From IMG/VR virus record IMGVR_UViG_3300037487_000459, positions 1-35,893 of that record: DNA of 35,893 nucleotides, one strand, 5' to 3'. The notes beneath the pieces are model-generated. The model made no database searches, was not told where the DNA came from, and saw only the letters and a list, made by a program, of their open reading frames with translations. A program made the position numbers and the translations under genes. Shown here in pieces: positions 78-35,893 of the stretch. The stretch comes from a virus. Numbering within the stretch: position 1 is the first letter of the stretch; each line of letters opens with the position of its first letter.

Positions 78-130
78 TGTTTTATAGTTTTAAATTTATA
101 CTTCAAACCTTCGCAAAGCTGAGAGTTATA
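1..130. repeat. Left copy of flank A of the variable locus
   Basis: This stretch matches 34821-34951 apart from three substitutions and one indel. The match ends at GAGAGTTATA (121-130), after which the two copies diverge completely. It carries the 5' end and leader of the small early gene. Taken with the exact match of 482-596 to the right end, it shows that the window ends hold two versions of the same locus. Confidence 0.9.
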
Positions 131-425
131 AGCCATTTCCGATAGTGCCAGTAAAGACAATTTTCGGACTAATTTGCTTACCTCTTTGCTCTAACCATTT
201 TGTATATTTAAAGCCATCATTATATTGCACAATTCTTATTCCTCTCCACCTTACTTTACCTTTTGTAATCTCGCCTTTAATTGGTGGTTCTGCCATTATT
301 CGCAAAGCAGAAGTGAAAATTTCTTCCTCTTTCTTTTGTTGCTCCGAAATAAAACGGCTTATAACATCGGCTATATTCAAGCTGGGCATTTCGGGTAAAT
401 CAAAGTTTAGTTTTTCTAATTTCAT
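126..425 (-). CDS. Cassette-like ORF, unknown 99-aa protein
   Basis: I do not recognise the family. The 99-aa product has an acidic, probably helical N-terminal half (a QQKKEEE stretch near residues 29-35) and a basic C-terminal half rich in aromatic residues (VRWRGIRIVQYNDGFKYTKW). No signal peptide or membrane segment is seen. Its stop codon lies inside the GTTATA boundary that ends flank A, and its start is about 57 bases from the GTT beginning flank B, so it fills one version of the variable locus exactly. At the other end the same place holds two different ORFs. This suggests exchangeable cargo. The hairpin expected upstream of its start is weak and degenerate. Confidence 0.6.
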   Translation of the reverse strand: MKLEKLNFDLPEMPSLNIADVISRFISEQQKKEEEIFTSALRIMAEPPIKGEITKGKVRWRGIRIVQYNDGFKYTKWLEQRGKQISPKIVFTGTIGNGL

Positions 426-481
426 TTTGTCTTAATTTAAAGTTTCGTTTTCATAATCCCAGCCTAAATATAGCCGAAAAC

Positions 482-596
482 CGTTAGCTGCTATTACCAT
501 TCACCGACAACGTGACCGCTCGGATAAACTGGACTTCCTGCAAATCTTCCAGTAGGTTCTATTGATAATATATCAACGTCTTTACCTTTAAAAAGC
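482..596. repeat. Left copy of flank B, 115-bp exact repeat
   Basis: These 115 bases are identical to 35779-35893, the right end of the window. The identity starts at CG|TTAGCTGC, a G|TT boundary, and continues until the window ends, so the true shared length may be greater. It covers the last codons of the 79-aa ORF. Because it lies 481 bases inside the left end, it is not a simple terminal repeat. It is where two alternative sequences (1-481 and the right end) join the same continuation. Confidence 0.95.
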
Positions 597-733
597 CATT
601 TGATAGTATCTCTAACACCAATTTCGCTATAACATAAACATTCTCTTTCTTCTTTCCATTTTTTACCAGATGGATAATTAAACTGATATTTAACTTTGAA
701 GTATTGATGCTTTCTTTTTTCTCCGTATGCCAT
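494..733 (-). CDS. Cassette-like ORF, unknown 79-aa protein
   Basis: I place the start at the ATG at 733 (MAYGEKRKHQYFKVKYQF), giving 79 aa. A longer reading to 826 would run through the hairpin element at 743-835. The product is basic and rich in aromatic residues, ending GSPVYPSGHVVGEW; its family is not recognised. The ORF forms one cassette-like unit of about 350 bases (484-833). The unit's first bases, GTTAGCTGC (483-491), are complementary at 8 of 9 positions to the box GCTGCTAAC (743-751) at its other end. A partial second copy lies at the right edge of the window. Confidence 0.65.
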   Translation of the reverse strand: MAYGEKRKHQYFKVKYQFNYPSGKKWKEERECLCYSEIGVRDTIKWLFKGKDVDILSIEPTGRFAGSPVYPSGHVVGEW

Positions 734-742
734 AATATAACT

Positions 743-835
743 GCTGCTAACAGCGTGTTTATGCAAGCGGGCGGACAACTTGCGGTTAGTATTTAAGTTC
801 GTGCTATGCCCGCCTGACATAAACACGCAATCATT
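743..835. repeat. attC-like imperfect hairpin (element 1)
   Basis: Reading the plus strand: box GCTGCTAAC (743-751), a 21-nt arm (752-772), a 35-nt loop, a 25-nt arm (808-832), then ATT (833-835) where the other copies have GTT. The outer stem pairs GCGTGTTTATG with CATAAACACGC (11 bp) and the inner stem pairs GCGGGC with GCCCGC, with a one-base bulge between. AAC followed by an A that cannot pair is shared with the elements at 35289-35372 and 35696-35788. The layout resembles an integron attC site, but the arm asymmetry is not that of class 1 sites. The G-to-A change may mark a decayed array end. Confidence 0.7.
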
Positions 836-1067
836 CCTCCTTAATTTTAGTAAGCATTTCCAAACTTAGTTCATAGAAATCAAAGTTATCTTTGTTGAGC
901 AACGGATAAATATCCGTATCGTGCCAGATAATCTTATTGATTTCAAGTTCATCTGGCGAGCCATCGTGTCCTACATCTCCGTTTGCCATGTAACGCTGTG
1001 CAGGTTCGCCTTTGCTGAATGTACCAATGACATCCACTTCAATCTCAATAGTTAGTGTAATTTTCAT
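831..1067 (-). CDS. Unknown acidic 78-aa phage protein
   Basis: A small acidic protein beginning MKITLTIEIEVDVIGTF, with a middle segment GHDGSPDELEI. The pattern of a short beta-rich start followed by a G-x-P-x-E-x-E-I segment reminds me of a small phage family of unknown role that I cannot name with certainty. The stop codon at 831-833 falls in the degenerate last triplet of the hairpin element 743-835, so this gene marks the edge of the cassette-like region. It is probably co-transcribed with the short ORF upstream from the promoter near 1188. Confidence 0.65.
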   Translation of the reverse strand: MKITLTIEIEVDVIGTFSKGEPAQRYMANGDVGHDGSPDELEINKIIWHDTDIYPLLNKDNFDFYELSLEMLTKIKEE

Positions 1068-9102: not shown

Positions 9103-9588
9103 ATCTTTCTTTGACAGCTCAGATATAGTCTTGTTTTTATCTTCGCTACCTCTGCTTGATCCAAAGAAAAAAGATACAACAGATACAAGTGCTGTTCCGT
9201 TGATTGTGCCTACAACTACATTGATTATCGTTTCATTCTTTGTAGGTATTTGCTGAAAACATAATATAAAATCAAACGAGAATGCCATGACTACAATACC
9301 AAGCGCAAAGAAGTAAATGAATCTCTTGCTGAATGTATCAGTCTGCGTAAGTGCCGCCATCTGCATCGCTCTGGCATCGGCAACATCTTTGAGATACAGC
9401 TCAACTGACTTGTTAGCGTGTTCCGCCATCAACTCAATATGCTTGTTCACTTCCATCTGTACTTTGAGATTGAACTCTTGCCTTTCGGATGGTGTTGTAA
9501 TGAACTTGTCGGCTACGTTGCCAATAGCATCAATGATGCCTCCGTTTCCCTTGTTGAATATATTTGCTAAGAAACTTCCTATCGGCAT
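9100..9588 (-). CDS. 3TM-type phage holin
   Basis: A 162-aa membrane protein that would open the inner membrane for lysis. The first 80 residues are amphipathic and include GNVADKFITTPSERQEFNLK, the characteristic start of the 3TM holin family, followed by a helix with ARAMQ. Two clear hydrophobic segments follow (about 91-112, FIYFFALGIVVMAFSF, and about 123-143, VVVGTINGTALVSVVSFFFG), then a charged tail. It lies one base after the GH25 lysin stop, the classic lysis pair. Confidence 0.85.
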   Translation of the reverse strand: MPIGSFLANIFNKGNGGIIDAIGNVADKFITTPSERQEFNLKVQMEVNKHIELMAEHANKSVELYLKDVADARAMQMAALTQTDTFSKRFIYFFALGIVVMAFSFDFILCFQQIPTKNETIINVVVGTINGTALVSVVSFFFGSSRGSEDKNKTISELSKKD

Positions 9589-9589
9589 A

Positions 9590-10180
9590 TTACATTCTAT
9601 TTAAGTCTACGTTCCCTCTAATACCATCAATGCTCCCTTTACTTGAATACTGCCAACAGAATGCCGCTTGCCATCCCTTTGCTATGCGTGGAGTTGTTGC
9701 ATCTGTATATTGAGCGTGCCACAATGGAACGCTTCCGAATGAGTGATTGACAGGTAGGTTTGCGTTCAGGAAGTAGTAACCAGAATAGATGCAATACGTT
9801 CTACCTGCCGCTGTGAGTATGTCAATGAATGTCGTTAGAAACAATGCGAACTCCGTTGGATTCAAGTCTATTTCCTCCTTCTCAATGTCAATCGCCAATG
9901 GCAAGTCATTCATTGGCAAGTTGTGAATGGCTTTAAGGAAGTGCAATGCTTGTTCCGTTGCAGACTTAACGACATCCTTAGTGTTTAGGTTTACGAAGTG
10001 ATAGTATCCTATCTTCAATCCTACACGCTTCGCCTCCGTTGCGTTCCTTGTAAGTTTTGAATCTACAAGTTTAGTTCCTTGCGTTGCCTTGATGAATATG
10101 AACTCAGGATGTTTCTTGTCAAGTATTACCTTGTCAAAGTTTATAATTCCTTGCCATACGCTTACATCTATGCCAAACAT
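9590..10180 (-). CDS. GH25 muramidase endolysin
   Basis: A 196-aa glycosyl hydrolase family 25 lysozyme that cuts the beta-1,4 bond between MurNAc and GlcNAc. Seen: DVSVWQG at residues 5-11, FIKATQG (29-35), GYYHF (58-62), the catalytic pair in AIDIE (D98, E100), and DLN near the C-terminus. There is no signal peptide and no wall-binding module, so it fills only the catalytic domain and depends on the holin for release. Its ATG shares a base with the stop of the 59-aa membrane ORF upstream (TAATG). Confidence 0.95.
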   Translation of the reverse strand: MFGIDVSVWQGIINFDKVILDKKHPEFIFIKATQGTKLVDSKLTRNATEAKRVGLKIGYYHFVNLNTKDVVKSATEQALHFLKAIHNLPMNDLPLAIDIEKEEIDLNPTEFALFLTTFIDILTAAGRTYCIYSGYYFLNANLPVNHSFGSVPLWHAQYTDATTPRIAKGWQAAFCWQYSSKGSIDGIRGNVDLNRM

Positions 10181-10359
10181 TATTTCTTTTTTTTAGTTTT
10201 ATCTTGTTTCAAATCACTTCTCCACTTGTAGATGGTGTATGCAATCGCCAACAATAGCGATGTAATCTTCAACCAATCTTCAAAGTCTGTGATGCTGATT
10301 GCGAGTGCGGTTATATGTGCGAGTAACACCGAACCAATGCTGTGTATAGAGTCTTTCAT
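10180..10359 (-). CDS. Small membrane protein in the lysis module
   Basis: A 59-codon frame (MKDSIHSIGSVLLAHITALA...) that fills the gap between the 72-aa gene and the endolysin. Its ATG overlaps the previous stop as ATGA and its stop overlaps the lysin start as TAATG. It shows two hydrophobic stretches (about 8-24 and 33-45) with DFEDW between them and a very basic tail (KQDKTKKKK). This fits a two-segment holin, antiholin or pinholin-like protein. The 3TM holin on the other side of the lysin would be its partner or antagonist. Confidence 0.65.
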   Translation of the reverse strand: MKDSIHSIGSVLLAHITALAISITDFEDWLKITSLLLAIAYTIYKWRSDLKQDKTKKKK

Positions 10360-15683: not shown

Positions 15684-16655
15684 TTAAGTATTTTTGTATT
15701 GAACGATTTGGTCAAAGTATTTTGCATTGATTCCATAACGGAATCTAACATACATCTTTAATAAACGAGTGTTCTTGTCAAACCAAACATCGAATTGCTC
15801 TGCATCGTTCATAGACACACAACCAATCATTATGTTAGATGGAACTAAGCCAAGTATTCTATGTTGAACTGCTGTTGGTAGTGTTCCTGATTCAACAGGA
15901 TTTCCGCTGTTCAATTCTGGTAGTGCTACAATCTTAGTCAATGAACCTGGATACAAATATTCTCCTACAACATTATTATCTCCTCCCTGCATGAAGAAAT
16001 TAAAGTTGTTAAGATTCTTTAACGCTTGTAAAGACAAACGATAATCTTCTTGAGATAACCAAATCTCTGGTTGCTCTCCTAAGATAGCATTCGGCAATTT
16101 GCTAAATACAATTTCATCAAGGATTCCTAAGATAGTTCCCGATGTGATAGATGCTTGTTGAGTAGCTGCTACTGCAGTTCCGTCTGTGTCAATCAAAGAA
16201 ATCAAACCATTCAACTGCTTTAAGTAAGTTGCGTTTGTATAAGTTGTTTTCCCTTGTACTAACTGCATGCCGATATTTCTTGCGAACACAGTAGCCATAC
16301 GATCCATAATCGGTTGGAATATTTCCACTTCTTGTGAGTTAGTTTGTTTCTTTAGATACTGACTTGTGAAGTAAGTTTCTAAGTCATTTCTACACCAAGA
16401 CAATTCAACAGCCATTGCAGTTGTTGATAGTGTTACTTGCGATGGAGTTGTTACTCCAGATGAGTTGAACGCACAGTCAGTTCCTGATTGGAATGGTACT
16501 GTTTGCTCTAATTTTGGAAGTTTTTGTGTTCCAAAGATACCTTCACGAATATCAACACCTCGTCCAAATATCTTTGAACCTGTCATTGATTTAGTGATGA
16601 ATTCTCCTGCTTGTTCGTTTACCCATGTGGCTAAACTTGTCATGTCAAATGCCAT
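15684..16655 (-). CDS. Major capsid protein, HK97-like
   Basis: A 323-aa major head protein. Position after protease and scaffold, length, and fold-like features support the call: an N-terminal arm (about 1-50), a long helix near residues 108-130 (EIFQPIMDRMATVFARNIGM), a middle domain with GTILGILDEIVFSKLP, and a C-terminal segment (VWFDKNTRLLKMYVRFRYGINAKYFDQIV) typical of the final beta strands of capsid proteins that assemble without a long delta domain. The gene has its own terminator. Confidence 0.9.
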   Translation of the reverse strand: MAFDMTSLATWVNEQAGEFITKSMTGSKIFGRGVDIREGIFGTQKLPKLEQTVPFQSGTDCAFNSSGVTTPSQVTLSTTAMAVELSWCRNDLETYFTSQYLKKQTNSQEVEIFQPIMDRMATVFARNIGMQLVQGKTTYTNATYLKQLNGLISLIDTDGTAVAATQQASITSGTILGILDEIVFSKLPNAILGEQPEIWLSQEDYRLSLQALKNLNNFNFFMQGGDNNVVGEYLYPGSLTKIVALPELNSGNPVESGTLPTAVQHRILGLVPSNIMIGCVSMNDAEQFDVWFDKNTRLLKMYVRFRYGINAKYFDQIVQYKNT

Positions 16656-16689
16656 AATTTTCTTTTTTTAGTTATTATTATTAATTAAA

Positions 16690-17322
16690 TTAAATTTCGC
16701 CTGCTACTTTTCTGCGCCATGCTTCCATCTCAGCCATCTTCACTATCTTGTTCTTAGGGATAGATGTTGCTTCAACTTGCGGCATCTTTGCAAATGCTTC
16801 AAATGTATTTAGTGTGCTTTCTGCAAACTTTCTTAGTTCTTCCTTATCGGATTCTAACTTTATGATAGTTGCTTTTAGTTCGTTGTTAGATGTCATTGCT
16901 TCTTGTTTAGCCATGTTCATAGCTTCTTCAATAGCAGCGATTCTGTTTTCGCATTCAACCATGCGAGGTGTTAAGTCTTCAGCCATAGCTTGATTTGTTT
17001 GAACAATTTCTTCATCCGATGGTTCGATTGCTTCTTCTGCAATCATTTCAAGTGTAGTGATAAGTCCAGATTCAACAGTTATGTTGAAAGTCTTACCATC
17101 AACAGCAAGTTCATAAGAGCCATCTGCAACAGGAACAACAGTACCATCCGCTGCAACAACTGAAATCGGAACACCGATTGCCGCCATGTCAGCTTCAATT
17201 CTTAATACTGTTCCATCTGTTTGTGCGTAGTCTTTGAACGACTGCTTGCCTGTTATTAGCTTAATAGTAGAGGCATAGACCTCTCTAAAGTTCTCTAATA
17301 TATTTTTTCTTGTGTCTTCCAT
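16690..17322 (-). CDS. Scaffold protein, probable
   Basis: A 210-aa acidic protein between prohead protease and capsid genes. The middle (about 35-90) is a small beta-rich segment (GTVLRIEADMAAIGVPISVV, then ADGSYELAVDGKTFNI). A long coiled coil follows (about 120-170, rich in E, A, K and M), and the end is basic (KMAEMEAWRRKVAGEI), as in scaffold tails that contact capsid subunits. The mixed beta plus coiled-coil build is common in Bacteroidota phages. It could instead be a capsid-fibre or head-opening protein. Confidence 0.75.
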   Translation of the reverse strand: MEDTRKNILENFREVYASTIKLITGKQSFKDYAQTDGTVLRIEADMAAIGVPISVVAADGTVVPVADGSYELAVDGKTFNITVESGLITTLEMIAEEAIEPSDEEIVQTNQAMAEDLTPRMVECENRIAAIEEAMNMAKQEAMTSNNELKATIIKLESDKEELRKFAESTLNTFEAFAKMPQVEATSIPKNKIVKMAEMEAWRRKVAGEI

Positions 17323-17331
17323 ACAATTACA

Positions 17332-17347
17332 ATAAGGTAAAATTTAT
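17332..17347 (-). promoter_or_regulatory. Repeated leader motif before scaffold gene
   Basis: ATAAGGTAAAATTTAT on the plus strand lies 10 bases before the scaffold start at 17322. Almost the same 15 bases (one A fewer) lie 10 bases before the tail chaperone start (25327-25341). This could be a shared late expression signal or a translation leader; the sample is only two. Confidence 0.35.
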
Positions 17348-17353
17348 CAAATG

Positions 17354-17965
17354 TTATAAAACCCCTAATTTTTTTCTCAGAGTAACTAACTTTTCGTGAA
17401 GTGATTCAAGTGATTTCTCATTCGCATCTACAAGATACTTATGTTCGAAGATTCCCTCTACGCTGAATCCTTTGAACACTCCTGTCTTGATGAAGTCGTT
17501 CCACATCTCATCATTATCAACTTTGAATGAGCCGAACCATGAACCATCGGCAAGCTCGCCATATCCTGATGGTGCAATCATGCCTCGTGTCTTATCAATG
17601 AACAATGATTCAATCATGTACACTCCATCCACCTTGCGCTGTTCATCGTGCATCATATTGACATTTGAAGTGAATCCGTTGCGGAAGTATTTCTGTATAA
17701 TCTTGAAGATAGTTTCTTTGTCAAAGATGCAATAGTATTCGCCCATTGAATCGTTGCGGTATATCGGCATCCCTGCCACCATCAATGCGCCAGATACGAT
17801 TCTGCGTTCTTCGTTGCCAATAAACATCTGCTTGCGTTGCTCAGCGAATGCCATCCACTTCATGTCGATTGCAGGTGCATCCACGAATGCAACATAATCA
17901 ACACCACTCTTGTCGTTATCATCGTCATTGATAACAAGTTTATAGACAGGTAATTTCTTTTCCAT
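17354..17965 (-). CDS. Prohead protease, XkdF-like
   Basis: A 203-aa protein of the XkdF-like serine protease group (Peptidase_S78_2 type), which matures the capsid shell. Family features: YKLVINDDD and VAFVDAPAI near the start, RIVSGALMVAGMPIYRND (about 54-71), YCIFDKETI, the histidine in NVNMMHDE (about 103), LFIDKTRG, and FKGFSVEGIFEH (about 164-175), which carries the candidate catalytic serine. It is directly followed by the scaffold and capsid genes. Confidence 0.88.
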   Translation of the reverse strand: MEKKLPVYKLVINDDDNDKSGVDYVAFVDAPAIDMKWMAFAEQRKQMFIGNEERRIVSGALMVAGMPIYRNDSMGEYYCIFDKETIFKIIQKYFRNGFTSNVNMMHDEQRKVDGVYMIESLFIDKTRGMIAPSGYGELADGSWFGSFKVDNDEMWNDFIKTGVFKGFSVEGIFEHKYLVDANEKSLESLHEKLVTLRKKLGVL

Positions 17966-30908: not shown

Positions 30909-31465
30909 TTGTGTTTGTATTTGTAAAAATATAAGACTTTATTGATTCTAACTTCTTTCTTTAGCAGTCCGCTGTTGTATATCTTAGTTGCCCAATCTTC
31001 ATCTTCGCCAAAGTCTATCTCTTGAAAACTAAACTGCTTTGCTATGCTTGACTTGATGGTGTTAAGATGGTTCGGGAATCTCTCATATTTTATATTGTTA
31101 GTTGTTGTTGCGTATGCTGAGTAACGGATTGAGTGTTCAAACATTTCTGCATTCCTGCCATCCCAAGTGATAACTCCAAGCAATGACACGCAGTCCGGCT
31201 TAGAATCTAATGCGCTTATAATGTCCTGAATGTATGTTGCGCTGATTTCGTCATCGTCATCAATGTAACAAATATATTCGCCTATTGCGGCATTGAGTAA
31301 GTCGTTGCGCTTAGTACCTATGCTGTTCTCATTATCGTAATTGACAAGCAGTTCAATCTCATTCTCCATGTTGATAGCTGATACTTGCTTGCACAGCTCA
31401 GCATAAAGTTTGTTGAACAAATCAACTCTGGTGTCTATTGTAAGAACTAATATAGATAGTATCAT
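30905..31465 (-). CDS. Family 2 glycosyltransferase
   Basis: A 186-aa GT2 protein: LSILVLTIDTRVD opening, GTKRNDLLNAAIGEYICYIDDDDEI (about 50-74) holding the DxD region, and GEDEDWATKIYNS (about 153-165), the usual ED motif near the catalytic base. It is a catalytic domain only, without membrane helices. The ATGA overlaps at both ends show co-translation with its neighbours. Confidence 0.85.
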   Translation of the reverse strand: MILSILVLTIDTRVDLFNKLYAELCKQVSAINMENEIELLVNYDNENSIGTKRNDLLNAAIGEYICYIDDDDEISATYIQDIISALDSKPDCVSLLGVITWDGRNAEMFEHSIRYSAYATTTNNIKYERFPNHLNTIKSSIAKQFSFQEIDFGEDEDWATKIYNSGLLKKEVRINKVLYFYKYKHK

Positions 31466-32106
31466 AACTCAAAGTTTAATTGTTTGCGCCTTGTAAACAC
31501 AGAGCCATCCTTTTGCCACATAGCAGCGTTATCCGTTGCCAAGTATTGTTCATCTGAGGCAGCCAAACCCCAAGCAGGATGCAAGTGATTGAATAGTATG
31601 TTGCCATCGCCCATGTATTTGTGTTTGCCGAGTAACTTCGCCACCTCTGTTGATTCTTCGTCAGCAAAGAGTGAAGTGTAGTCTGGATGGTAAATGTAAT
31701 TAAATCTTTCGTAATACGTTCTACCCATGATTGACATCGTGCATACGTTTGACTTCTGGTTGCCATCGTTCCAATGAATGAACTGATCCAAGTCAGCTCC
31801 AAACGCATCAAGTATGTCAAGGTCGAATCCCTCTTTAATGAACCTCATGTCATCGGACATATTAACAAGAACATCCCACTCTTCGTTGCTGTTCATATCT
31901 CTATTGATTGCATGTATCTTGTTGATGCTCCTTCCTAAAATGACTTCAACACGACTATTGTATATCGCAGGATATTCCACATCGTTATCGTCAAGAGTGC
32001 AAAGAATCTTGTAGTCTTTATGTTTGACATTTCTTATAATGTTGTTAAGCGTATCAAGAAACTTCTGAGGTCTTGAACGAGATGTTAGTTTGTATAGAAT
32101 CTTCAT
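31462..32106 (-). CDS. Glycosyltransferase-like protein, GT2 type
   Basis: A 214-aa protein that begins MKILYKLTSRSRPQKFLDTL, close to GT2-like sugar transferases, with an SDDM candidate metal site (LVNMSDDMRFI, about 81-91) and a GDGNILFNHLHPAWG segment. It overlaps the upstream GT2 gene by 53 bases and the downstream one by four. Confidence 0.7.
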   Translation of the reverse strand: MKILYKLTSRSRPQKFLDTLNNIIRNVKHKDYKILCTLDDNDVEYPAIYNSRVEVILGRSINKIHAINRDMNSNEEWDVLVNMSDDMRFIKEGFDLDILDAFGADLDQFIHWNDGNQKSNVCTMSIMGRTYYERFNYIYHPDYTSLFADEESTEVAKLLGKHKYMGDGNILFNHLHPAWGLAASDEQYLATDNAAMWQKDGSVFTRRKQLNFEL

Positions 32107-32758
32107 AAGGTTTGTAAATTTGTGTTCCTTTTTTTTCAGTTAAAAATATATTCCAATTATGCTCCAAAAATAATTCTTTTTTAATGTTAGGCAATGAAGA
32201 TTCAATCTTCTTATCAGAGTAATCATGTGCGAACAGTAAGTTGTTAAGTCCCTTCGGCATCATGTACGGATGTGGATTCAATCCTGCCTTGTAGATGCGC
32301 TGTGAGTATCCTGCATGTTCATAGCCATAAGACTTGTAATTGTTATCAAAGTAACCAACACGCATCCACTCCTTGCGAGTTACTGACATAAACACTCCGC
32401 CACATTCATCAAACACATCATAATTGAAGCGGTGTGATTGGTATGTGTTACTGCGTTTGTGGAGTTTGTGATTGAGCAGAAGAACATGGCGGTCTGGCAT
32501 GAACTTATCCCATCCAAACTTGATAGGGAAGCAGTCATCGTCAAACAAATACACTATATCGCATTTAAACAGTTCAAACAGGTTGTATAGGCATTTGTTC
32601 TTCGCCTGAGCAATACCTCTGTATTCATCGTCTATGTGCGTGTATAGGGCAAATGATTGCTGTGTGTATTGTTTGATGTTGGCGATACATTCATCGTATC
32701 TCGCCATCCTGTTAGGTGTCGTTGTGATTCCTATGCCTATCTTCGCTGTTATTTCCAT
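32054..32758 (-). CDS. Family 2 glycosyltransferase
   Basis: A 234-aa GT2 enzyme: start IGIGITTTPNR, GIAQAKNKCLYNLFE (about 48-62), DIVYLFDDDCFP (DxD, about 67-78), GGVFMSVTRKEW and a YGYEHAGYSQRI acceptor-side motif. A complete small GT-A domain. It overlaps its two neighbours, which shows an operon. Confidence 0.85.
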   Translation of the reverse strand: MEITAKIGIGITTTPNRMARYDECIANIKQYTQQSFALYTHIDDEYRGIAQAKNKCLYNLFELFKCDIVYLFDDDCFPIKFGWDKFMPDRHVLLLNHKLHKRSNTYQSHRFNYDVFDECGGVFMSVTRKEWMRVGYFDNNYKSYGYEHAGYSQRIYKAGLNPHPYMMPKGLNNLLFAHDYSDKKIESSLPNIKKELFLEHNWNIFLTEKKGTQIYKPYEDSIQTNISFKTSEVS

Positions 32759-33780
32759 TCGTTAATTAAATTATTGTAAATATCAAATCTTCGTTTGCTA
32801 TATTTCGACAAGTCATAGTTTGACTTGACAAATCTTGACAAGTTACTTGCATACTGCTCCCTCGTATCTTTATCCATCATGGCTTCCATACAGTCAAACC
32901 ATCCATTGTTCACATCGCCAGGATTGACGAACATCACACAGCTATCAGGGAAACAATCGTAAGGCGGTACTCTGGATGCGATTACTGCCTTGCCCATCAT
33001 ACCTGCCTCCACTATCTTCAGCTCCGACTTACATGAACTGAATGTGGATGGTCGCAATGGAACGAGTGCCACATCAATCTCGTTGTATAGCTTAGAGTAG
33101 TTGAATACATCGAGTGTGTTCAATCGTTTGTACTGAGCGTGTTCTCCCTTGCGGTTGCTGAACATCTTCTCATGCTCAATGTACTCTGGAGCTGAGCCGA
33201 ATGAACATGCAAACTGAAACCCACTTAACTGCTCATAAACCTTGCCTATGCCGACACGCAGGAGTTCTGTGTCCGTTCTGTGATAGATGCCTCCTATCCA
33301 TCCGAATCTTACAACATCGGATTCTGTTGGAGCTGCAAGCCATGTCGCATCTAAGCAGTTCGGAAGTATGTGTATCGGTGTGTCGGTACGCTGTGCAATC
33401 TTCTCAGCAAGCGTTGTTGTAGTTGTTGTTATGACATCGGCAAGCTGAAAGTCTGCATTGATTTGTTTGGCTATCTTGTTCTTTTCAAACTGCTCTTTCA
33501 TCGGATGCGTTGATGGTAGCTCCCATGAATCGTCAAGGTCGTATATTATCTTCAACCCTGCCTCCTTGCATATCTCAACGATACGCTGTGAGTTGCTCTT
33601 GACTCCAATGTTGCGCAGGAAGTGAATGGCATCGAACTGCTTTAAGCGTTCAACACTTGTATCAGGTGTTGTCGTTTCGACATCTACCTCTGGATACATC
33701 TCGCATAGATGCTGATGCGGAACAATCTGCCTGTGGTATTGTAAACCTGTATGTGCGGTTATGTTTAGGAGTAGTTTCAT
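32749..33780 (-). CDS. GT-B glycosyltransferase, family 4-like
   Basis: A 343-aa enzyme with two Rossmann-like halves. The N-half has IIYDLDDSWELP (about 78-89) and ILPNCLDATW (about 147-156), and the C-half has VRFGWIGGIYHRTD (about 166-179) and the sugar-nucleotide motif KSELKIVEAGMMGKAVIASRVPPY (about 252-275) with its E-x(7)-E-like arrangement. It is the first gene of the glycan block, linked by ATGA to the sigma-like gene. Confidence 0.85.
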   Translation of the reverse strand: MKLLLNITAHTGLQYHRQIVPHQHLCEMYPEVDVETTTPDTSVERLKQFDAIHFLRNIGVKSNSQRIVEICKEAGLKIIYDLDDSWELPSTHPMKEQFEKNKIAKQINADFQLADVITTTTTTLAEKIAQRTDTPIHILPNCLDATWLAAPTESDVVRFGWIGGIYHRTDTELLRVGIGKVYEQLSGFQFACSFGSAPEYIEHEKMFSNRKGEHAQYKRLNTLDVFNYSKLYNEIDVALVPLRPSTFSSCKSELKIVEAGMMGKAVIASRVPPYDCFPDSCVMFVNPGDVNNGWFDCMEAMMDKDTREQYASNLSRFVKSNYDLSKYSKRRFDIYNNLINEWK

Positions 33781-34292
33781 ATCTTTCTAAATGAGTTTAT
33801 ATCGTTGCAGATGGTTGAATGCGGTATCTTTGTGAGCTGTGAAATCTTTCTGTATGACTTATACTTGATGTAAAGTCTAATGAGATTCTTCTTGTAGAAT
33901 GTTTCTTTCGTGTCGTTCTCATTGTCTTTGATTCGTTCTTCATATTCGTCAAACAGACTGTTGTATTCAATCTCGCCTATGTTTATATTCTCGTTAAATT
34001 CTGCCTCAATGACATTGCTCTTTGCTCTGTTGTTATACTTGTAGTTGTACTTATCCTGGTTGTTGGGATTCCGTATTACATTCCTACATACTGAGATGAA
34101 TATCTTGCTTACTTCTTCGTCTGTTTTGTTATCAAAATTAAACTTCTTTTCTATTATGTAAATAATTGTTTCACTAAATATATCTTCTTCAATAGAGGGG
34201 AATCTCTTGCAGATGTTTATGCAATAGACTTTGAATCTTCGCTCTGTGCAGATTCTTTCAATCACTTGTTCATTGTTAGGTATTGCCGACAT
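33777..34292 (-). CDS. Divergent phage sigma factor-like protein
   Basis: A 171-aa protein with an ECF-like layout. Residues about 20-60 (YCINICKRFPSIEEDIFSETIIYIIEKKF) resemble region 2 helices, a charged linker follows, and residues about 138-168 (LYIKYKSYRKISQLTKIPHSTICNDINSF) form a region-4-like HTH. It stands at the head of the late block, ahead of the glycan, terminase and structural genes, so it may redirect host RNA polymerase. The similarity is remote; a plain HTH regulator is the alternative. Confidence 0.65.
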   Translation of the reverse strand: MSAIPNNEQVIERICTERRFKVYCINICKRFPSIEEDIFSETIIYIIEKKFNFDNKTDEEVSKIFISVCRNVIRNPNNQDKYNYKYNNRAKSNVIEAEFNENINIGEIEYNSLFDEYEERIKDNENDTKETFYKKNLIRLYIKYKSYRKISQLTKIPHSTICNDINSFRKI

Positions 34293-34465: not shown

Positions 34466-34686
34466 TTCATTAAGGTTTTAGAATAGCGGTAAATTATACG
34501 GAACGGAACGTAGTCTGGATTGTATGTAGTCTTGCCTTTTGTCTTAATCTTAATGACCAATCCTGTATCTCCAAACTCTTTTTTAATAAGTTTCTGCGAT
34601 TGCTCCATGTCAAGCTCATGTTCAACATTCTTTTCTCCGTTGATGTTGAATGCTGTGAAATATATTCGTGTTGCTTTGAGTATCAT
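34462..34686 (-). CDS. Unknown 74-aa early protein
   Basis: Not recognised. A short alpha/beta protein (RIYFTAFNINGEKN, then QSQKLIKKEFGDTGLVIKIK and YVPFRIIYRYS). ATGA overlaps on both sides tie it to the early operon. Confidence 0.6.
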   Translation of the reverse strand: MILKATRIYFTAFNINGEKNVEHELDMEQSQKLIKKEFGDTGLVIKIKTKGKTTYNPDYVPFRIIYRYSKTLMK

Positions 34687-34898
34687 TGTTCTTCAATTTT
34701 ACTTGACAAAACTTCTTGCGGTTTACGTTCAATCATTATGGCATGCGTTATTGTCTTGCCTAATATCTGAACGCTGCTTCTTATTTCGCTGAGCATGTTA
34801 TCCTGTTTCATTAATTGCTTTAATACCTCAGTTTCCATGTCGTTCTCTGGATGGATAACTAATTTAATCTGTCCGTTAATCAAACAATCTATTTTCAT
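34683..34898 (-). CDS. Unknown 71-aa early protein, full allele
   Basis: Not recognised. It starts with a strand pair (MKIDCLINGQIKLVIHPEN) and ends in a helical part with LGKTITHAIMIERK. It is the first gene after the variable cassette-like locus and is present in both versions, with only synonymous differences in the shared N-terminal part. Its leader lies in flank A, so its expression might depend on what is inserted upstream. Confidence 0.65.
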   Translation of the reverse strand: MKIDCLINGQIKLVIHPENDMETEVLKQLMKQDNMLSEIRSSVQILGKTITHAIMIERKPQEVLSSKIEEQ

Positions 34899-34951
34899 TG
34901 TTTTATAGTTTTAAATTTATACTTCAAACCTTCGCAAAGCTGAGAGTTATA
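34821..34951. repeat. Right copy of flank A of the variable locus
   Basis: Matches 1-130, apart from three substitutions and one indel. Its end, GAGAG|TTATA, is the boundary after which this version contains the 102-aa ORF. The G|TT at 34946-34947 is the predicted exchange point. Confidence 0.9.
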
Positions 34952-34959
34952 TTCAAGTT

Positions 34960-35268
34960 TTAAAAATTTGCCACCGCACCCTTAATCCTTGATAATAATT
35001 CTTTCGCCTGTTTCAATTCGGCTCTAACTTCATCACAAGGTGCATATTCGGCTTTTAGCATTTTATCAAAATATTCCTCATTCACTATTGCGCCTTTATC
35101 TACAAATTTGATAAATCCCGTATCATTAAAAGTTATCGTATTTATGTAAGCCATTATGATAGCATTAACTTTTTCGCCATCAAATATTACATCTTCTGTT
35201 CTGCAATCAAATTGTCCATCGCCAACTTGTCGCTTAAATGTGTATTGTTCTTTTTTATCTATTTCCAT
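34960..35268 (-). CDS. Cassette-like ORF, unknown 102-aa protein
   Basis: Not recognised. The first half is strand-like (YTFKRQVGDGQFDCRTEDV...), and the C-terminal 30 residues form an amphipathic helix (DEVRAELKQAKELLSRIKGAV). It fills a unit of about 418 bases (34947-35364). The unit starts with GTTATATT (34946-34953), whose exact complement, AATATAAC (35290-35297), begins the hairpin at the other end. One or no copy is present in the other version of the locus. Confidence 0.65.
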   Translation of the reverse strand: MEIDKKEQYTFKRQVGDGQFDCRTEDVIFDGEKVNAIIMAYINTITFNDTGFIKFVDKGAIVNEEYFDKMLKAEYAPCDEVRAELKQAKELLSRIKGAVANF

Positions 35269-35288
35269 CGCTTAAATTTTTAAAACCT

Positions 35289-35372
35289 AAATATAACACA
35301 ACCTAAAATCAAACCGCCACATACTAACCGCTTATAAAGGCGGTCAGCTTTTAGCTTGATGCCGTTATCGGC
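35289..35372. repeat. attC-like imperfect hairpin (element 2)
   Basis: Plus-strand layout: AAATATAAC (35289-35297), 21-nt arm (35298-35318), 20-nt loop, 25-nt arm (35339-35363), GTTATCGGC (35364-35372). The arms pair at 16 of the 20 inner positions (ending ACCGCC/GGCGGT), and after AAC the first arm starts with A, three paired bases, then a C that cannot pair. The same A-NNN-C mismatch pattern is found in element 3. Confidence 0.75.
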
Positions 35373-35376
35373 AACC

Positions 35377-35652
35377 CTATGACTTCATCCAGTTATCAAT
35401 TTCCGACTTTAAAAACCTTAACTTTTTACCACCCTTGTGAACAGGTATTTTACTTGAATTTACCCATCCATAAACCGTTGCTTTACTTGGTTGGTCTGGC
35501 ATGTATTCGCATAATTCATTTAAGTTCATCCACCTATCAGGGGTTTCTTCTTGTTTTAATTCTTTCAATTCTGCCAAAACTTTTTTGACACTTTTTTCAA
35601 TTAGCACCTCTAATTCTTCGGGTGTAATTTGTACGATTGTTACTGCTTGCAT
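35377..35652 (-). CDS. Cassette-like ORF, HTH_17/excisionase-type protein
   Basis: A 91-aa DNA-binding protein. Residues 1-40 are helical and may dimerise. Residues about 42-90 are a MerR-like winged HTH of the kind found in excisionases and in Bacteroidota mobile elements: MNLNELCEYM, SKATVYGWVNSSKIPVHKGG, KLRFLKSEIDNWM. It could direct recombination or control its neighbours. It fills a unit of about 416 bases (35365-35780) whose first bases, GTTATCGGC, are the exact complement of GCCGATAAC (35699-35707) at its far end. Confidence 0.85.
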   Translation of the reverse strand: MQAVTIVQITPEELEVLIEKSVKKVLAELKELKQEETPDRWMNLNELCEYMPDQPSKATVYGWVNSSKIPVHKGGKKLRFLKSEIDNWMKS

Positions 35653-35695
35653 TTTGTTTTTATTTTAAATTGTTAATATTAATTCCGAAAGAAGG

Positions 35696-35788
35696 GCAGC
35701 CGATAACAGCACATTTGAGAAATTGGCTACCCTCGCTCAATTCCCACGCTAAAAAGCCAACTTCACAAATCTGCAAATCGTTAGCTGC
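35696..35788. repeat. attC-like imperfect hairpin (element 3)
   Basis: Plus-strand layout: GCAGCCGATAAC (35696-35707), 21-nt arm (35708-35728), 26-nt loop, 25-nt arm (35755-35779), GTTAGCTGC (35780-35788). The inner 16 positions pair at 14 (ATTTG, GAA, TTGGCT). The arm begins A-GCA-C against T-GCA-G, the same two mismatches as element 2. The final GTT is where flank B, shared with the left end, begins. Confidence 0.75.
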
Positions 35789-35893
35789 TATTACCATTCA
35801 CCGACAACGTGACCGCTCGGATAAACTGGACTTCCTGCAAATCTTCCAGTAGGTTCTATTGATAATATATCAACGTCTTTACCTTTAAAAAGC
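35779..35893. repeat. Right copy of flank B, 115-bp exact repeat
   Basis: Identical to 482-596 and running to the window's end. The identity begins at CG|TT. It shows that this end continues into the sequence after position 596, which would close the genome into a circle of about 35.3 kb. Confidence 0.95.
35791..35893 (-). CDS. Partial 79-aa ORF, second copy
   Basis: The last 33 codons of the ORF found complete at 494-733, with identical bases. The rest is outside the window. It is the same gene seen again because the window's ends overlap, not an independent paralogue. Confidence 0.8.
   Translation of the reverse strand, partial: LFKGKDVDILSIEPTGRFAGSPVYPSGHVVGEW

Follow-up and report, generated by a model that had tools for sequence, protein, structure and literature searches.

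The cassette locus of the window

The window, that is, the whole stretch of DNA analysed, is an IMG/VR virus contig of 35,893 bp. Its gene set includes the terminase large subunit, portal, head protease, Erf-like annealing protein and endolysin, every one encoded on the minus strand, and we consider it to be a tailed-phage genome whose host is probably a member of the Bacteroidota. Phage records queried with the window's terminase protein gave only distant matches. The ends of the contig overlap: positions 1-130 are a copy of the stretch ending at 34950 (127/131), and 478-596 are a copy of 35775-35893 (118/119). The window therefore closes into a circle carrying two versions of one locus, bounded by two fixed phage genes on the minus strand that encode proteins of 71 aa (34683-34898, to the left) and 78 aa (831-1067, to the right). 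The left version holds one cassette (A) and the right version two (B and C), and cassette D follows in both. These cassettes measure about 350-420 bp each and consist of one small ORF and an attC site.

Cassette A, the left-end allele (126-483, 358 bp), starts at G125|TT126, and its start GTTATAAGCC (125-134) pairs with the inner box GGCTTATAAC (352-361) at 10 of 10 positions. Its ORF (126-425, minus strand; 99 aa, no known family) uses the TTA of the cut box as stop codon. The attC site lies on the minus ('bottom') strand, from the R'' box at 352-361 to the R' box at 483-491; it is the best attC match of the window to the covariance model described below (357-491, minus strand, 82.4 bits, E 1.5e-18) and folds to -20.8 kcal/mol on the bottom strand versus -17.8 on the top. 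Cassette D (484-833), common to both alleles, recurs at 35781-35893, where it is truncated by the contig end. Its boxes GTTAGCTGC and GCTGCTAAC match at 8 of 9 positions, its ORF (494-826, minus strand) encodes 110 aa of no known family from a GTG start, its site is matched by the model at 743-841 (minus strand, 18.7 bits, E 0.01), and its far edge reads (A)TTCC in place of G|TT.

The right-end allele begins with cassette B (34947-35364), with boxes GTTATATT and AATATAAC matching at 8 of 8 positions, a stem at 35290-35364 and an ORF at 34960-35268 (minus strand, 102 aa), for whose protein no relatives were found in IMG/VR. Because its site fits the covariance model poorly (7.5 bits, E 6), this cassette rests on its boxes and stem only. 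Cassette C (35365-35780) has boxes GTTATCGGC and GCCGATAAC matching at 9 of 9 positions, a site matched at 35699-35788 (minus strand, 33.5 bits, E 2e-6) and an ORF (35377-35652, minus strand) encoding a helix-turn-helix protein of 91 aa (HTH_17, E 1e-9). The left edge of the array is a half attC-like motif, CCTTCGCAAAGCTGAGAG|TTA (34929-34946, plus strand), with a copy at 108-125. Identity between the two alleles breaks at GAG|TTATA and resumes at (C)G|TTAGC, the G|TT points expected for cassettes. Both the anatomy of the cassettes and the exchange of alleles at the cuts are shown by these data. As both alleles come from a single metagenome contig, a mis-join of two strains is possible; even in that case both sides show exchange at the cuts.

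With at least two tandem attC sites and no integrase gene nearby, the window array meets the criterion for a CALIN (A, C and D have sites with E <= 0.01, and B is counted from its boxes). No integrase was found in the window by tblastn with array integrases as queries, and the phage attI described below is absent from it, the left array edge being half an attC. An Rfam scan of the window returned no family. Simple repeats were considered as the identity of the units and dropped.

The sequence-only reading had described integron-like cassettes at 34947-35364, 35365-35780 and 484-833. These units held, and their box matches (8/8, 9/9 and 8/9) were confirmed, but the count was too low, as cassette A had been overlooked. 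Nor do the units at the two contig ends form separate arrays: both ends are one locus with different cassettes between.

Two other features of the genome deserve mention. A C5-methyltransferase gene (1205-2980) lies just beyond the array, and related genes are cassettes in other phages (L043, L033, L029 and G001); it may be a former cassette that is now fixed. At 31462-33780 there is a run of glycosyltransferase-like genes, adjoining a weakly sigma-factor-like gene (33777-34292).

Relatives carrying other cassettes at the same locus

In the related IMG/VR contig 3300007734_000622 (G001; 35,460 bp, with a 94-bp exact terminal repeat) the left-hand fixed gene is 100% and the right-hand one 99% identical to those of the window. 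Within the array edges shared with the window lie a C5-methyltransferase cassette, another cassette and a remnant, both cassettes being box-matched. A further contig, 3300031746_000505 (G002), has the right-hand gene (94% identical) and the edge motif with some 45 bp between, and is thus nearly empty. The left edge motif is common to the window, G001 (as CTTCGCAAAGCCGAGAG|TTA) and G002. Since G001 carries different cassettes and G002 almost none, the locus is a site of cassette exchange and not a set of fixed genes. The earlier proposal of integron-like cassettes is supported, and both of its stated refuting conditions were put to the test and were not fulfilled: the ORFs are not fixed, as seen in G001, in G002 and in the two versions of the window, and the box matching within units is kept in relatives.

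A family of attC sites in phages and Bacteroidota

An exact-pattern search with both arms of the G001 sites retrieved 47 IMG/VR contigs, of which three were clearly false and 44 were kept, together with 67 genome contigs, nearly all the true ones belonging to Bacteroidota (more than 50 genomes). The family sites are about 135 bp long, with RYYYAAC before and GTTRRRY after. In a search within 1.5 kb, the inner 9-base box had its reverse complement upstream in 44 of 67 sites and downstream in none; for the outer box, the reverse complement lay downstream in 37 sites and upstream in one. This pattern is the mark of cassettes that were once circular. Of 106 viral cassettes, 75% match at 8-9 of 9 box positions, and of 72 chromosomal ones 83% do so; shuffling the pairing lowers these figures to 10% and 8%. 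Thus, the integron criterion that the R'' box be complementary to the first bases of its own cassette (GTTRRRY), with the cut at G|TT, is met.

A covariance model built from 50 pattern-selected sites, none of them from the window, recovers sites A, C and D of the window and gives a weak match at B, every one on the predicted strand. Stem pairs beside the invariant arms covary across the 50 aligned sites. As expected of the imperfect attC hairpin, the bottom strand is the more stable in 81 of 89 family sites, which were picked by their arms, a bias toward this result. Among sites that the model detected, the same holds for 111 of 126 in viruses and 59 of 77 in chromosomes; within the window the bottom strand folds better than the top strand at A, B and C and not at D. 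No conserved bulges were found in the L stem, in which the 50 sites have 14 consecutive consensus pairs, 11 of them invariant (the arms being set by the search pattern). The 11-bp arm is unbroken on the bottom strand by virtue of two G.T wobbles, and the same positions are A.C mismatches on the top strand. The I2 domain of integron integrases is held to read the bulged bases of attC (PMC7790495); we infer that an enzyme lacking I2 and a bulge-free attC would suit each other. That these hairpins are used as single strands is likewise inferred. In Polaribacter phage P12002L, a Bacteroidota phage from the literature that carries attC, only one weak site (26 bits) was found.

Phage integrases and their attI

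A tblastn search with recombinases from the ends of Bacteroidota arrays matched two viral loci, and the alignment of these two viral tyrosine recombinases led to 35 viral contigs, found by the integrase alone. At least 22 of the 35 carry attC arrays, which invariably lie upstream of the integrase with a single orientation. Of the remaining contigs, most end near the integrase. The first cut, located by box matching, lies 53-54 bp from the integrase start codon in 13 contigs, and five more align there; in six others the first detected attC is farther away and the array edge is uncertain. The conserved phage attI ends in TACATATAGTAG|TTA. The linkage of integrase, attI and array is thereby shown; that the linked integrase performs the recombination is inferred, as none was observed. 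The claim of the sequence-only reading that a host enzyme would have to act on the phage DNA held only in part, this being one option while 35 viral contigs encode their own integrase.

Viral status was checked for only some of the contigs called viral, the terminase family phrog_2 being present in 16 of the 44 pattern-derived contigs. At least two integrase-bearing contigs are clearly phages: in G063 a terminase (543 bits) is accompanied by portal, tape measure and DnaB as well as by a phage integrase distinct from the integron-type one, and G058 encodes a terminase, portal and helicase. As a side observation, two integrase genes occupy 9386-10186 and 16596-17771 in G063 (L194), a temperate phage that carries one of the ordinary phage kind and one of the integron kind.

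Arrays in Bacteroidota chromosomes

Recombinases of the kind found with the phage arrays also lie near Bacteroidota chromosomal arrays. In 7 of 8 chromosomal cases checked, box matching (one mismatch at most) placed a first cut at a distance of 98-306 bp from the integrase gene; some of these cases gave more than one candidate array start. An attI beside the integrase gene, as expected of an integron, is therefore met in relatives (53-54 bp in phages, mostly 98-230 bp in chromosomes) and not in the window. In Bacteroidota bacterium SSA2 (G016, CP058707.1) at least 300 attC sites lie on one strand between 3,475,737 and 3,982,503, covering 507 kb or about 12% of the chromosome (loci L151, L155, L156 and L211-L235), with an I2-less recombinase about 3 kb past the last attC. 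It is possible that this array is bigger than any described superintegron.

Two observations concern the chromosomal recombinases themselves. In Ca. Parvibacillus calidus (G035:C1), about nine near-identical broken copies of a recombinase gene lie at approximately 913,597-990,701 and 3,124,085-3,817,752, several of them among attC sites; they have an in-frame TAG and a frame of 224 aa, and may represent a multiplied cassette or element. Many chromosomal array integrases (L143, L145, L149, L152 and L153) have an extra N-terminal stretch of about 70 aa that is absent from the phage ones.

Array integrases lack the I2 domain

The extra domain I2, of about 40 residues, is held to define integron integrases (PMC7784347, PMC2426708). 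It is missing from both the phage and the chromosomal array integrases, and the criterion of an integrase with I2 is not met. The segment between the KG and HxxRH motifs (GKG..HxxRH) measures 65-71 aa in the phage enzymes and 70-73 in the chromosomal ones, compared with 74-78 in XerC/D and 111-113 in two canonical IntI, and alignment to the IntI 2A3V leaves out chain residues 184-245. None of nine proteins scanned reached the TIGR02249 cut-off, and no canonical IntI above the cut-off was found in any of the 41 array-bearing genomes. An AlphaFold (AF2) model (pLDDT 90.5) likewise predicts no extra helix; its top PDB match by E-value is XerA (5hxy), and its highest TM-score (0.77, query length, among the leading hits) is with the attC-bound IntI 2A3V. 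In a phylogenetic tree the phage integrases form one clade (100/99), and phage and chromosomal array integrases together group with IntI, apart from XerC/D (100/100). Branches are long, and the order inside the IntI-containing group is unsure.

Opposite polarity of phage cassettes

Phage cassette ORFs run antisense to attC in 103 of 106 cassettes and, on integrase-bearing contigs, in 26 of 26, a total of 129/132. In chromosomes they run in the sense direction (59 of the 67 cassettes with an ORF, and 96 of 97 in a further set; 155/164). Polarity was called from the longest ORF per cassette. The two chromosomal sets partly overlap (some loci on the same contigs), so 155/164 is approximate, and a few phage contigs are in both phage sets. 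Under stricter ORF rules the counts were 69 antisense to 0 in phages, and 52 sense to 2 (first set) and 96 to 0 (second set) in chromosomes. Cassettes within one contig are not independent, although the split spans dozens of contigs on each side. Phage cassette ORFs often terminate at the TTA of the cut box itself (24 cassettes) or 12 bp inside (24). Thus, an ORF in the direction of attC, a further criterion for integrons, is not met in phages (3 sense of 132), unlike in chromosomes. Neither this polarity nor the absence of the integron-specific domain had been visible to the earlier reader.

Cassettes shared among phages and their cargo

An all-against-all comparison showed that whole cassettes are common to otherwise different viral contigs, the shared pieces ending 0-11 bp from the cuts. 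Examples are the G001 methyltransferase cassette and L029 (1,084 bp, 94%), L047 and L025 (332 bp, 94.6%), and L053 and L025 (222 bp, 91%); numerous further shared pieces are a single attC only. Phage and chromosomal attC are 71-89% alike, and cassette bodies are hardly ever common to both. The search for a host donor of the phage cassettes found attC similarity only, the longest piece being 240 bp at 89%. Among 123 phage cassette proteins the majority had no match at all. Those assigned to families include DNA methylases (C5, 4; N6/N4, 4; MT-A70, 2), Mom, a TET-associated glycosyltransferase, dATP/dGTP pyrophosphohydrolases and HNH nucleases. This cargo is rich in DNA-modification genes, and it is likely, though inferred, that it serves quick swaps of anti-restriction genes between phages.

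Proposed explanation and its rivals

The window is likely to be a tailed phage in which two fixed genes flank an array of integron cassettes that has no integrase and is served by a recombinase in trans; recombination itself is inferred. In this view, a tyrosine recombinase from an integron, either phage-encoded or on a Bacteroidota chromosome, would recognise the folded bottom strand of attC and cut at G|TT, and cassettes would leave as circles or be inserted. Related phages possess the complete device: their integrase is without I2, attI is found 53-54 bp from the integrase start codon, and the cassettes are inserted with ORFs antisense to attC. As the cassette ORFs run with the phage operon, it is inferred that they are read by phage transcription rather than from an integron promoter at attI.

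One alternative is that these are ordinary integron cassettes which the phage acquired from a host chromosome and which are mobilised by the host's canonical IntI. Canonical attC sites usable by IntI1 do occur in virulent phages (PMC9892861), and the 71-89% likeness between phage and chromosomal attC would fit capture. However, the polarity is opposite (129/132 antisense in phages against 155/164 sense in chromosomes), the bodies are not common to phage and chromosome, canonical IntI is lacking in 41/41 array-bearing genomes, and the phages have their own integrase clade and attI, so we regard this explanation as unlikely. Still less probable is that host XerC/XerD act on the arrays as dif-like sites, the linked integrase being an unrelated phage integrase. 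XerC/D are present in the hosts checked, and attC stems without conserved bulges look like duplex DNA, a likeness also reported for the CTXphi site (PMC4792948). Against this, the linked integrase lies 53-54 bp from the first cut in phages and beside the array end in chromosomes, it groups with IntI and apart from XerC/D (100/100), and an ordinary integrase is encoded separately in at least one phage (G063).

It could also be argued that the hairpins are terminators or regulatory elements between fixed small phage genes, box matching being merely part of the stem. Some hairpins do act as terminators, and attC-like sites are intergenic hairpins. However, the two matched boxes are separated by 200-1500 bp, one at each end of the cassette, and do not flank one hairpin; the outer boxes of one hairpin differ because the right box belongs to the next cassette. 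Moreover, relatives differ in gene content with breaks at G|TT, and both alleles and cassettes are exchanged, so this possibility is practically ruled out.

Beyond the preferred reading of an integrase-less cassette array served in trans, a bolder one can be put forward, to which we give slightly less than even credence. Phages and Bacteroidota would share a class of integron without I2, whose bulge-free attC is read as duplex DNA; the two wobbles closing on one strand would select the strand, and phages would hold a separate, mirror-image pool of cassettes. If true, this class may preserve a stage that preceded I2, and would lend weight to the viral link that has been suggested for the origins of integrons.

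I2 sets IntI apart and is thought to have made single-stranded attC a substrate for recombination; IntI1 is inactive once I2 is deleted. Direct causal proof is described as missing, and the idea that integrons arose from viruses has been only speculation (PMC7790495, PMC4792948, PMC7784347). A natural combination of attI, attC and cassettes without I2 makes both the I2 requirement and the viral origin testable. Integrons have been reported as rare in Bacteroidetes, IntegronFinder 2.0 naming one complete in Bacteroidetes proper, in Salinibacter (PMC9024848). Searches requiring I2 would miss systems such as these, and integrons in Bacteroidota and their phages are probably far commoner than reported. 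Phages would also possess a dedicated trade route for single genes, DNA-modification genes included.

Comparison with known systems

The window array is of the CALIN type, a known kind, and the surrounding system is an integron variant that we did not find described in the literature searched. The system works like an integron, as far as its activity can be inferred, and strict membership fails on the integrase domain. Neither phage integrons with their own I2-less integrase nor mirror-oriented phage cassettes were found in that literature, preprints and many subscription journals being outside its scope.

Integrons and CALINs in phages have already been published, with host-type IntI where an integrase was found (Qi et al. 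2023, PMC9892861). As here, those phages carry integrase-less attC cassettes with DNA methyltransferases among the cargo; in the assay of that study, IntI1 used the phage attC. However, the complete integrons reported there are of the host type and encode a canonical IntI, and the arrays typically have the usual orientation. The phages described here instead possess an integrase clade of their own that lacks the extra domain, together with a fixed attI and ORFs antisense to attC.

Sedentary chromosomal integrons of the Vibrio type share the integrase, the attI, the long attC array and box matching within cassettes. They differ in that the integrase here lacks I2, the attC L stem has no conserved bulge, and the integrase gene in the Bacteroidota chromosomes seen mostly points in the same direction as the array. 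Tyrosine recombinases of the XerA/XerC type (PDB 5hxy, 4a8e; NF040815) are the best sequence matches and also lack the extra domain, but the array integrases are linked to attI and attC arrays and group with IntI against host XerC/D, and only one of nine scanned (L148) passed the NF040815 cut-off. Elements of the CTXphi type, which exploit Xer (PMC4792948), resemble this system in having a duplex-looking hairpin site and an enzyme without I2. However, those elements hijack the host Xer and integrate whole phages, whereas here the system has its own integrase and handles single-gene cassettes.
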